From contig CASEQO010000126.1 in assembly GCA_949290035.1 (NCBI GenBank), forward strand, positions 1 through 10,952: DNA of 10,952 bases, given 5' to 3'. Source of the DNA: an uncultured Mycoplasmataceae bacterium. Lineage in GTDB: Bacteria; Bacillota_I; Bacilli_A; Mycoplasmatales; Mycoplasmoidaceae. The translations under genes were made by a program, and so were the position numbers. The notes beneath the pieces are model-generated. The model searched no databases. It was not told the DNA's origin and saw nothing but the letters and a program-made list of their open reading frames with translations. Shown in pieces: positions 1 through 10,952 of the stretch. The number at the start of each line of letters is the position of its first letter. The stretch's first letter is position 1.

Positions 1-1157
1 AAGATGTAATAATAATTGATCAAAAAAATAAAGGTCTAGCTGCCGCTAGAAATATTTTATCTAAAAATGCAAAAGGAGATTATATCTTTTTTTTAGATGT
101 GGATGATTATATTCCAGAAAATTCTCTTCAAGATTTATATGATAATTCAGATAATGGAAACAAAGATATAATTACAGGAAGAACAAAAATTGTTTTAAAG
201 AATAAATTTAAATTTCCATTTTTAGTATCTTATAGATATTTAAAATATATGTCTTCATTACATTATGTTAAATCAAATATTTGCACTCCTTGATCATCAT
301 TAATAAAAACTCAAATATTAAAAAATGAAAAATTCTTAGAAGGTTATTCGTATGAAGATATAGGATTAATGAATTATTTATATTTAAAATATACAAATTT
401 TAATCTGATAAAAAAAATAGTTTATTTTTATAATAAAAATGAAGAAGGGCTTTCTGCTTTTAATAAGAATAATAAGTGAAAAATAATTGATTTATATCAT
501 CAAACATTATATGTATTTAATAAATATAAAGATGAGGGTTGACTAAACAATAAACAATATAAAAGATTTATTAATGGAACATTGTTCCAAATGCTAGTTG
601 CAATTAATTGACTTTCAAAACATTATTCGATATCTAATAAATTAAATTTATTACCTTTTTTATCACAAATAGAAATGCTATTTAAATTCAATATAACTTT
701 AAAATATTCAAAAACATTTTGAAAAGCGTTAACTTTTTTTTATTTAAATAAAAAAATCAAAAAATGTCTATCTATTTTAAAAAATAATAAGAAAGTGATA
801 AGTGAAAACGATTTTTATTTTTGTGATAATAAAAAAGTTAAAAATAAAATTATAATGGTAGATGATTTTGATTCTATTGAATTTAATAATAAAAAATATA
901 AAAAATCTATTTTATTTACAACACAAAAAAATGAATCTATTAATAATTTATATTTAGGTATTAAGCCTAATTCATTAAAAGAGTTGAATGATATAGATGA
1001 AAGAATATATTTTATAGATTTAAGGCATATAAATAATTTAGATAAAAAAGACATTGATTTACTAAATAAAATAAATACTAGAATTTTAATTTTATTAAAT
1101 AAAAATAACAAAGATTTATTTAAAAAAAACAATAATATTAATTTTATATACATTTAG
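1..1157 (+). CDS. Family 2 glycosyltransferase, 5'-truncated by window edge
   Basis: The reading frame is open from position 3 to the TAA/TAG-type stop at 1155-1157 when TGA is read as Trp, giving 384 visible residues. The N-terminal strand and first nucleotide-binding loop, perhaps 50-60 residues, lie outside the window. The visible start carries the GT-A signature GLAAARN followed by GDYIFFLDVDD. The DVD is the metal/nucleotide-sugar DxD site. YEDIGL further on fits the usual acidic catalytic-base region. GT2 enzymes move a sugar from a nucleotide sugar onto a glycan or lipid at the inner membrane face; donor and acceptor cannot be read from this sequence. The last 120 or so residues (from about 795) are rich in Asn, Lys and Ile and match no domain I know. 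A GTG at 795 could be mistaken for a start, but it lacks a ribosome site and lies inside the open frame. The next glycosyltransferase gene starts 15 nt downstream, so the two are probably one operon. Confidence 0.85.
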
Positions 1158-1172
1158 TTTTATAGGAATATT

Positions 1173-2060
1173 ATGAATAAATTTACAATTATTATTCCAA
1201 TGTTTAATTCTGAGAAATTTGTAGCTAACACATTAAATTCAATTATAAGCACAAATTATGACAAAAATAATATAGAAGTTTATGTAATTGATGATGGTTC
1301 TACAGATAATTCAGGAGAAATTGTTAGATCTATTTCAAAAGAAAATCCATTTATTAAATATGTTAAAAAAAATAATGGTCATTGAGGTTCAGTTATTAAT
1401 TATGCTAAAAATAATTTAAATATGATAGGTGACTATATATCAATATTAGATTCAGATGATTTTTATGTAAAAGAAACTTTTAATATTATAAATAAATTAG
1501 TATTAAAAAGTAATGATGATCTTATTGTTGGTTCATTTAAAAAATATGATGGAAATAAACCAAGAAAAAAAGTAATGCCTTTTTGATTCATTTTTAAAAG
1601 AATTTTAAAAAATAAAACCCAAATGAATACACCTTTTTGTTTACCTCTTCCTTTTTTTGCAAAAAAAGAAGTTTTCTTAAAATTAAATGATTTAAAAGAA
1701 GGTGTTGCTTATCAAGATCCAGATTACTCGACACAGTTAGTAAAAAATAGTTCTTCATTAAGATTTACTAAAAAAGTTATAGGTCTTTATTATTACAATA
1801 GAGAAAATAATTCTGTTTCTCAAAAATGAGATAATAAAAGATTAGAACCAGAATTTCATGCTTGTTTAAAATGTATAGAAAATGATGCGCAAGAGTTAGT
1901 TTCATATAGATTAAATATTAAAGACTTTAGAGAATGCATAAAAGATAATAATTTAAAATTTAAAATAAATAGAAAGTTTAAATTTAATTGATATCCATTT
2001 TACATAAGGTGGGCATATTGATTAATTCATATAACTAGATACAAGAATTTTTTTTATTAA
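1173..2060 (+). CDS. Family 2 glycosyltransferase (GT-A fold)
   Basis: This is a complete 295-residue protein. The ATG is preceded by AGGA at 1164-1167, at good spacing. GT2 features appear in order: N-terminal strand FTIIIPMFNSEKFV, the nucleotide-binding VIDDGSTDNS (about residues 40-50), the subgroup motif NNGHWGSVINYA, the DxD site LDSDD with Asp93, Asp95 and Asp96, and YQDPDYS as the likely catalytic-base region. Trp residues, including the one in GHWGS, are encoded by TGA; one TGG is present near the 3' end. The aromatic and basic C-terminus (WYPFYIRWAYWLIHITRY) may lie against the membrane, but no clear transmembrane helix is seen. The gene follows the truncated glycosyltransferase by 15 nt and ends inside a terminator, so it looks like the last gene of a surface polysaccharide or glycolipid operon. 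The family call is firm; substrate is unknown. Confidence 0.92.
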
Positions 2061-2076
2061 AATTCTTGTATTTTTA
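2038..2076 (+). terminator. Rho-independent terminator overlapping the glycosyltransferase stop codon
   Basis: ATACAAGAATTTT (2039-2051) pairs perfectly with AAAATTCTTGTAT (2059-2071) around a 7-nt loop, and a G-U pair at 2038/2072 can extend the stem. A run of T at 2071-2075 follows. The TAA stop (2058-2060) sits at the loop/3'-arm junction, so the last codons of the glycosyltransferase form the 5' arm. Confidence 0.85.
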
Positions 2077-2106
2077 ATTAAATTTATTAATAGTGTTTTA
2101 TTTATT

Positions 2107-2117
2107 TAAAATATAAA
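2107..2117 (+). promoter_or_regulatory. Possible -10 element just upstream of the primase-helicase gene
   Basis: TAAAAT (2107-2112) and the overlapping TATAAA (2112-2117) resemble a -10 box in the 44-nt gap after the terminator. No convincing -35 is seen. No Shine-Dalgarno-like purine run precedes the ATG at 2121. If this box is used, transcription would begin at or next to the ATG, giving a leaderless mRNA. The background is so AT-rich that such matches occur by chance. Confidence 0.3.
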
Positions 2118-2120
2118 TAT

Positions 2121-4683
2121 ATGAATGATAAAAAGAATATATTTTATTATATAAAAATTGAAAAAATACTTAGTGAATATCGTAATAAATACGGTGATGA
2201 AATTTGGAATTCATTTTTTATTGATAAAAATGATAATCAAAAAGAAATTGATATAAAGCAAGGTGATATTAGTAATCAAATTCAGTATTATGAAATAAAG
2301 AACAGTAATATAAAACAATTTATAAAATTATTTTTTAATACTCCATTCTATTTAACATATTGATCAAGAAATGACAAAAGTGGTTTTGCAATAGCTTGTG
2401 AAAATGAATGAAAACAATATATTTGTAAAAAGAAAACTGGTGGATATTGTAATAATTGTCAAAATGTAAAATTTAAAAACATAAGTGAGGAAATAATATT
2501 TAATCATTTGAATGACGAAAATAAAATTTCTATATTTAGCTTGGATGAAAATAATAGTAGTAGATTTTTAATTATTAAATTTGATTATAAAAATTGACAA
2601 AAAGATATTTTAGAATTTAAATATTTTCTTAAAAAGATGAGTTTCAATAGTTATATTGAAATATTAAATAATGGTAGCGAAGCAAATCTATGAATGTTTT
2701 TTGAATCCAAAAAATCTTCAAATATGATTAAAACATTTGTTCAATTAATTTTATATGAAATGCTTGATTATAATAGTTTGTTTAACTTTGAAATATTTAG
2801 TAAGTTAATTCCAAGTAAGAATAATGTTAGCAATTGACTTTTAGGCGATGTTATTTTATTACCTTATTCAAAATATGAGTTAAATAATAATTCATCATAT
2901 TTCATCGACGATGAAAACAATTATTTAAATATAAATGATTTCGTTAACAAAGTAGAAATAATAAAAAATATTGATTTTGATAAATTTAAAGATAAGCATA
3001 AAAAAGACATTGAAAACATTTGAAATGGAGATAATTTTCAAATTGAATATAACGGTACTATAGAAATACTTAAAGGTTCAGAGTTAATATTTAATTTAGA
3101 AAACTTAAGTTCATCTATTTCAAAGTATTTAAGATTAAAATCATCTATAAAAAATCCTGAATTTGTTAAAAAGATAAGAATGAGAATGTCTACTTATAAT
3201 GTTCCATTTATAATATTTTGTAGCAGAGTAGAAAATAATAATATTTATATTCCAAGAGGGTTAGAAAAAGAGATATTAAATAAATTTAAAACAAGTGATA
3301 TTAGTTTTAAATTAATAAATAATTTTAATAAAACAAATAAAATAGATGTAGATGATAACATAACATTAAATAGTGATCAAGAAATATCTTTTCAAGATTT
3401 ATTAAAATATGACAATGCAATTTTAGATGCTAAAACAGGTTTTGGAAAAACTGTTTTAGCAATGAAATTAATATCAAAACTAAAAGTTAGAACATTAATT
3501 TTAGTTCATAATACAACACTTGCTAAGCAATGATACAATTCAATTTTAAAATTCTTAAACATTGATGAAGATAGAATTTCTTTTAATAAAAAGGAATACA
3601 AAGATATTAATATCAGAACTAATCAATCATATTTAAGAGAAGAAAATATAAGTAATGATACAAAAACTATAAATTTATTATTAATAGATGAATGTCATCA
3701 TTATGCTTCTCCATCATATGAAAATATTATCAAAAGAATAAATTCAAAATATGTATATGGATTTACAGCCACAGCTAAAAGATCTGATAGTTTATATAAA
3801 ATATTAGACTTTGTTATTGGTCACACAATTAAAGCAAAACAATCAGCAAATATTATAAAAAGAAGAGTAATTGTAAAAACAACAGATTTTAATGTTGTAT
3901 CTAATGATAAATTAGATTTATCAATTTATAACGAGGCGTTGTCTAGTGATTCTATAAGGAACAAATTAATTGCAAATACTGCAATTGAATTTGAAAAAAC
4001 AAAATAAAGTTATATTAATAATAGTTGAATGAGTTAAGCATTTAGAGTTCATTCAAAAAGAATTAGAAAATAACAATTTGAATGTAATTATATTGCATGC
4101 CCAACAAGACATTAAAAATAAAAAAATTAACTTTGAAAAATTGTCTATTAAAGGTCCAAAAATAATTATTGCTACTGGAGCATATATTGGAGAAGGATTT
4201 GATGTTCCTGATATTGATACATTAATTATTGGTTTTCCTTTCAAATGATCTGGAAGATTAGAACAATATATAGGAAGAATGAGAGAAAATGATTTGAAAG
4301 ATGAATTAACTATAGTAGATTTTTTAGATAAAGATGTACTATATTACTATAAAATGTTTATTCATAGATTATCAACATATAAGAAGTTTGGATACGAAAT
4401 ACAAAATAATAATAATTTTAATCAAATGGTATTTGATATAAAAGTTGCTAAAGATCACATAAATAGTGAAATATTAAATTCTAATACTCAAATAATTTCT
4501 AGTATTAATTTTAATAAGTTAGTTAAATTAAAAATAGAGCTACAAAATAAAAATATATTATATATAGATAATAATGAAATTGAATTTTTAATTATTGATA
4601 ATAATATAGTTTGAATATTTTCATCTAGTAAAATGTGTATTAGAATACAAAATGAGTATTTGGTAAAAGAGCTATCTAAGTAA
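2121..4683 (+). pseudogene. TOTE-type conflict-system primase-helicase, frameshifted
   Basis: The first frame runs from ATG 2121 to TAA 4005-4007 (628 aa). The C-terminal part continues in the +1 frame to TAA 4681-4683, for about 853 aa in all. The N-terminal part matches the archaeo-eukaryotic-type primase of TOTE systems: a zinc cluster at Cys93, Cys102, Cys110 and Cys113 around CENEW, then EEIIFNHL, then RFLIIKFD, then ANLWMFFE. A linker with NPEF (345-348) and IPRG (377-380) follows, as in the family. The SF2 helicase has Walker A TGFGKT (Lys443), DECHH (523-527) and TAT (549-551). After the frame break come the strand KVILIIVEW, motif V (ATGAYIGEGFD) and motif VI (QYIGRMRE). Known members are ATP-driven proteins linked to defence against invading DNA. 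Here the primase DxD is K-F-D (Lys153, Asp155) and the motif II His is Asn189, so priming is probably lost. About ten TGA Trp codons show long residence in this genome. The TOTE assignment rests on motif order recognised by eye. Confidence 0.85.
3970..4007 (+). other. Frameshift window in the primase-helicase gene
   Basis: The upstream frame stops at 4005-4007. The downstream frame is closed before 3970 by a TAA at 3967-3969. The switch (+1, or equivalently one extra base) must therefore lie between them. The window holds an A6 run (3994-3999), a C, then an A4 run (4001-4004). Removing one A from either run joins IEFEK to the NKVILIIVEW strand that starts the second helicase domain. Explanations are a real indel, an assembly error in a homopolymer, or slippage. 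The A runs are not placed in the 1-3-3 phase of a classical -1 slippery heptamer. Confidence 0.85.
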
Positions 4684-10884: not shown

Positions 10885-10890
10885 ATAATA

Positions 10891-10952
10891 TGGTGCTTAG
10901 AAAGGGACTTGAACCCTTAAGATATCACTATCGGTGGATTTTGAGTCCACTG
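10891..10952 (-). tRNA. tRNA-Leu (anticodon CAA), cut by window edge
   Basis: Read on the minus strand, the 3' part of a class II tRNA is visible. The anticodon stem GTGGA/TCCAC encloses the loop CTCAAAA with anticodon CAA, which reads UUG. A long variable arm follows, with stem GATA/TATC and loop GTGA. The T stem AAGGG/CCCTT encloses TTCAAGT. The acceptor strand is TCTAAGC, with discriminator A and an encoded CCA at 10891-10893. The acceptor 5' strand and D arm are beyond the window. The long variable arm and A73 agree with leucine identity. Confidence 0.95.

Follow-up and report, generated by a model that had tools for sequence, protein, structure and literature searches.

A TOTE-type primase-helicase gene of an uncultured Mycoplasmataceae bacterium probably lost primase catalysis before its reading frame was broken

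CAPP_A, the third type of CRISPR-associated Prim-Pol, combines a Prim-Pol with a helicase, and work on CAPP, as far as the excerpts of the source used here go, centres on priming and synthesis (PMC8211822). The TOTE conflict system is described, in the portion of the source drawn on, as TPR, OB, TBP and Effector, with TPR/cold-shock and TBP genes alongside (PMC12458937). In animals, Twinkle joins a TOPRIM primase to an SF4 helicase, and excerpts of one account describe an active-site-mutated primase that is kept beside a working helicase (PMC9723800); Twinkle is also the subject of a second source used in part (PMC12230644). We found no report of primase-dead TOTE helicases in the parts of the literature searched, which is no proof that none exists.

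Here we describe such a gene in the window, by which we mean the whole stretch of 10,952 nucleotides that was analysed; it makes up all of contig C126 (10.9 kb) of a fragmented 0.88 Mb genome that is 78% complete. Residues 63-283 of the first open reading frame (ORF 1) match the Pfam AEP-TOTE model PF22548 with a score of 136 bits (cut-off 27), and ORF 1 also matches the ResIII helicase domain at 79 bits, in agreement with an earlier assignment to the TOTE primase-helicase family (the original prediction). The gene joins an AEP-TOTE primase to an XPB-like SF2 helicase, and its zinc cluster, AEP primase, PRG linker and helicase follow the same order as in other PF22548 primase-helicases; archaeal and eukaryotic XPB are not known to have a primase domain. 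The Prim-Pol domain fold is common to this protein and CAPP, but the first Asp of the catalytic pair, the His and the motif III Asp are lost in the window. With Twinkle only the working principle is compared, as an analogy and not as kinship, because TOPRIM/SF4 and AEP/SF2 belong to unrelated superfamilies. We consider it probable, at roughly 0.7, that primase catalysis was lost first while the helicase was kept, that the frame was broken later, and that the gene is now a young pseudogene.

With TGA read as Trp, the window encodes two glycosyltransferases, the TOTE gene, a third glycosyltransferase, pcrA, thrS and cysS, so that the neighbours of the TOTE gene within the 10.9 kb contig are glycosyltransferases, pcrA, thrS and cysS; no cas gene was recognised there. 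Both this reading of TGA and the size of the genome are consistent with a mollicute. The cas1 gene of the same genome lies on contig C88, and the TOTE gene on C126. It is an open gene (Pfam) in a CRISPR-cas locus (L108, G000:C88, positions 1-4531), where it stands between ORFs that resemble cas9, cas2 and csn2 by reading of the sequence and not by profile; the contig is short and showed no direct repeats. The hairpin that precedes the TOTE gene (Table 1) folds at -13.6 kcal/mol (z -6.0 against shuffles), and a G+C-based terminator scan listed no terminator, this hairpin included. A promoter scan was uninformative (34 sites against 33.3 in shuffles) and an Rfam scan returned no match at the gathering threshold. 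At the right end of the contig, positions 10885-10952 look by eye like part of a minus-strand tRNA gene cut by the contig end; ARAGORN, run on the window, listed no tRNA at that place.

Table 1. Positions of features of the TOTE gene and its upstream flank in the window
Feature	Position	Strand	Basis or location
Terminator-like hairpin with U tail	2037..2073	+	between upstream glycosyltransferase and TOTE gene
ORF 1: Zn/primase domain and helicase domain 1 of AEP-TOTE primase-helicase	2121..4007	+	ORF list, Pfam
AEP-TOTE primase domain, residues 63-283	2307..2969	+	Pfam
Four-Cys cluster C93, C102, C110, C113, retained	2397..2459	+	alignment, codons
Motif I: K153-F-D155 replacing D-x-D	2577..2585	+	alignment, codons
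Motif II: N189 replacing catalytic His	2685..2687	+	alignment, codons
Motif III: S227-K228 replacing Asp-Arg (DRMFP to SKLIP)	2799..2804	+	alignment, codons
Walker A AKTGFGKT, retained	3429..3452	+	alignment
Walker B DECHH, retained	3687..3701	+	alignment
ORF 2: helicase domain 2, motifs V/VI (IGEGFD, QYIGRMR), C-terminal extension, other frame	3970..4683	+	Helicase_C 37.7 bits
Six-A run, site of frame break, between two RecA-like helicase domains	3994..3999	+	two-frame P0065 alignment

ORF 1 has 628 codons with TGA as Trp, seven of them TGA, and ends at a TAA at 4005-4007. The closest AEP-TOTE relatives, for example P0002, P0065 and P0066, are 40-43% identical to it, and in the alignment with relatives K153 occupies the position of the first DxD Asp, and N189 that of the motif II His. 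Reading of the codons (K153 AAA, D155 GAT, N189 AAT, S227 AGT) bears out the residues that the original prediction had named, including the four zinc-binding Cys, and the alignment agrees with the catalytic positions that it gave them; the zinc ligands and Walker A and B are all kept, as it had also stated. What it had missed is the loss of the motif III Asp at S227. The catalytic set of D/D/H/D has therefore become K/D/N/S and all three primase motifs are lost, whereas AEP-TOTE relatives keep the DxD, His and Asp (the DDHD set is complete in 115 of 116 non-redundant relatives). The zinc cluster of the window protein remains CCCC.

Because D155 and the zinc cluster are kept, one could imagine a primase that still acts through a re-drawn site built from K153, N189 and S227. 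We regard this as very improbable. Stand-in acidic or His residues, which the original prediction had put forward as a possible refutation, were looked for near motifs I-III, and none was found: between residues 120 and 262 of ORF 1 no [DE]x[DE] begins, and the only His residues between 100 and 300 are H129 and H293. Furthermore, in the excerpts of the two studies used here, the Asp pair is needed in PolpTN2 (PMC5862659), and in MpCAPP changing both Asp residues of this pair abolishes polymerase as well as primase activity (PMC8211822). Judged from its residues, the window protein would have no primase activity.

To compare constraint along the gene, we counted broken columns, taking those at least 90% conserved among the 116 relatives and also trying thresholds of 85% and 95%. 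In the window, the primase has 22 of its 37 such columns broken and the linker none of its 3, and the counts for helicase domains 1 and 2 are 6/33 and 3/21; in the intact sister P0002 the four counts are 6/38, 0/3, 6/34 and 2/21, and the medians for relatives are 1, 0, 1 and 0. One relative, L034, breaks 21 primase columns and all others break seven or fewer, while the window's count is equalled or exceeded by 7 of 116 relatives in helicase domain 1 and by 14 of 116 in domain 2. For helicase domain 1, the other thresholds give 11/44 broken at 85%, a count that 5 of 116 relatives reach, and 3/23 at 95%, which 4 of 116 reach; P0002 breaks as many as the window at both (12/45 and 4/24). Distances point the same way: the ratio of primase core to helicase domain 1 distance from the window to three sisters is 1.72-1.82, a value that no pair reaches among 1775 active ones with comparable helicase identity, and active pairs with 45-55% helicase identity have a median of 0.90. 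Constraint, as estimated from the alignments, is lost mainly in the primase domain and is near-ordinary in the helicase. The helicase itself is not pristine: two motif changes (TATP to TATA and RSDG to RSDS) and the place of domain 1 at the family's high end for broken columns put its full function in doubt. In the helicase TxQS motif, N501 (3621-3623) is a private change of the window, with Ile at this position in its near-identical relative P0001 and Phe or Ile in the sisters.

This asymmetry bears on whether the whole gene has long been neutral, with the primase losses part of ordinary pseudogene decay. The gene is broken now, helicase domain 1 has the many broken columns just noted, and the lost positions are encoded by A/T-rich codons (AAA, AAT, AGT), as drift at 20% G+C would give. 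However, there is a single break in about 850 codons at 20% G+C, and it is the primase that has mainly lost constraint; we consider long neutrality unlikely. We instead favor loss of catalysis first, the simplest order in which the events may have occurred. In a first step, the AEP domain would have lost its metal-binding and catalytic residues in all three motifs, with the zinc site, the primase fold and the XPB-like helicase staying under near-ordinary constraint. Given that constraint, the interim protein was probably a helicase, whose dead primase domain may, by analogy with animal Twinkle, have bound or recognized DNA.

The second step, the frame break, would be recent. ORF 1 ends between the two helicase domains, which the original prediction had overlooked; the two SF2 helicase domains do not share one frame, domain 2 lying in another. 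Residues 7-608 of P0065 align to 2145-3995 and residues 607-832 to 3991-4677 in another frame; this two-frame match indicates a single ancestral gene, about 830 codons long, split by a one-base break in the A-run of Table 1. P0002, P0065 and P0066 keep a single reading frame where the window gene is split. In ORF 2, domain 2 is still 50% identical to P0065 across 226 residues and contains no stop except TGA, and the break therefore looks young. Since it parts helicase domain 1 from domain 2, the gene is most likely a young pseudogene. The original suggestion of a helicase with a non-catalytic primase fold thus fits the lost catalytic residues and the kept helicase constraint, but not the gene as it now stands, with its frame broken.

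A single-base change in a homopolymer, on a contig of a fragmented genome, could also be a sequencing or assembly error, in which case the gene would encode an intact primase-dead helicase. Yet all five other complete genes in the window have open frames, although they contain 44 A/T runs at least six long, and the cas1 on another contig is open as well. In addition, P0001, a near-identical protein from another contig and a different allele, differs by two substitutions over 488 residues, the start aside, and ends at the same residue as ORF 1. An error is accordingly improbable and the break is probably real, a conclusion that draws on two assemblies that are possibly not independent.

A real break might nonetheless be bypassed, by transcriptional slippage on the A-run, by ribosomal frameshifting or by separate translation of the halves, so that a working primase-dead helicase is made. 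Domain 2 is little decayed (3 of 21 columns broken), the same stop is present in P0001, the primase-dead form persists elsewhere, and by eye there is an AAGGA at 3956-3960, 9 nt before the TTG start of ORF 2 at 3970. However, the AAGGA overlaps a conserved Arg-Asn pair and may thus be due to chance, the A-run is only six long, and no marked structure of the kind expected for a programmed frameshift follows it (z -0.5). Bypass therefore seems to us about as improbable as an error, and we keep to the young pseudogene. The break itself is ordinary, in that it is not uncommon for relatives to carry broken TOTE genes: these are in two pieces at 4 of 62 loci (two of the 62 being longer copies of others) and at 2 of 31. 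These six, L024, L052, L067, L070, L086 and L103, are split in two by frame breaks or stops; the primase motifs were readable in five of them and are intact in each, L070 being unreadable.

The original prediction had raised lineage-wide conservation of the Lys and Asn as a sign of new function, which the relatives do not support: among the rows examined, the K/N state is found only in the window and in the 99%-identical P0001, and the nearest relatives of the window protein have intact catalytic residues. Because the K/N/S state is thus carried by one species and at most two alleles, it is constraint alone that points to a functional dead-primase phase. PF22548 matches come from three of the family's 95 genomes, and a search with P0065 found the same three among 320 of the order; in the other two (L002 and L004) all catalytic residues are kept. 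No match came from the two remaining genomes of the genus, whose completeness is about 90% and 77%, and one of them has, at L038, miaB, a glycosyltransferase, one further ORF and pcrA without a TOTE gene, miaB being named by reading of the sequence and not by a profile match. The TOTE gene is accessory. A phage origin was rejected; a scan of viral contigs gave three loci, each of which matches the helicase part only, at 27-35% identity.

A second primase-dead TOTE group is present in the Erysipelotrichaceae, with nine distinct proteins (P0183-P0190 and L076). Frames are open at the four loci seen as DNA; the catalytic set is lost, the zinc Cys are mostly kept and the helicase motifs are kept. 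The motif III Asp is kept in all nine, in contrast to the window gene with its split frame and lost motif III Asp. In three genomes of the genus g187, the primase-dead gene (L074, L106 and L107) has a UPF0158-GNAT gene as neighbour, and in two of these a DUF1848 gene also lies next to it. A single dead-primase lineage for the window and this clade was rejected by an AU test (p=0.0058) on a quickly built tree with 76 rows (55 of these a random sample of the relatives), in which the window row was flagged for unusual residue make-up. On this tree-based evidence the two primase losses are separate, and primase-dead TOTE helicases would therefore have arisen at least twice.

Tentatively, these observations suggest that TOTE/CAPP primase-helicases have at least twice become primase-dead, with the zinc-primase fold perhaps serving as an arm for DNA capture or target recognition, a bacterial SF2 counterpart of Twinkle. 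This would be a settled chromosomal gene in the Erysipelotrichaceae, and a route taken and then abandoned in the window. The more general point of the finding lies in the Erysipelotrichaceae clade. If TOTE/CAPP helicases can work without primer synthesis, then the helicase, steered by the primase fold, would be the working part in at least some of them; the unbroken Erysipelotrichaceae proteins, as natural separation-of-function mutants, offer a direct test of that idea.
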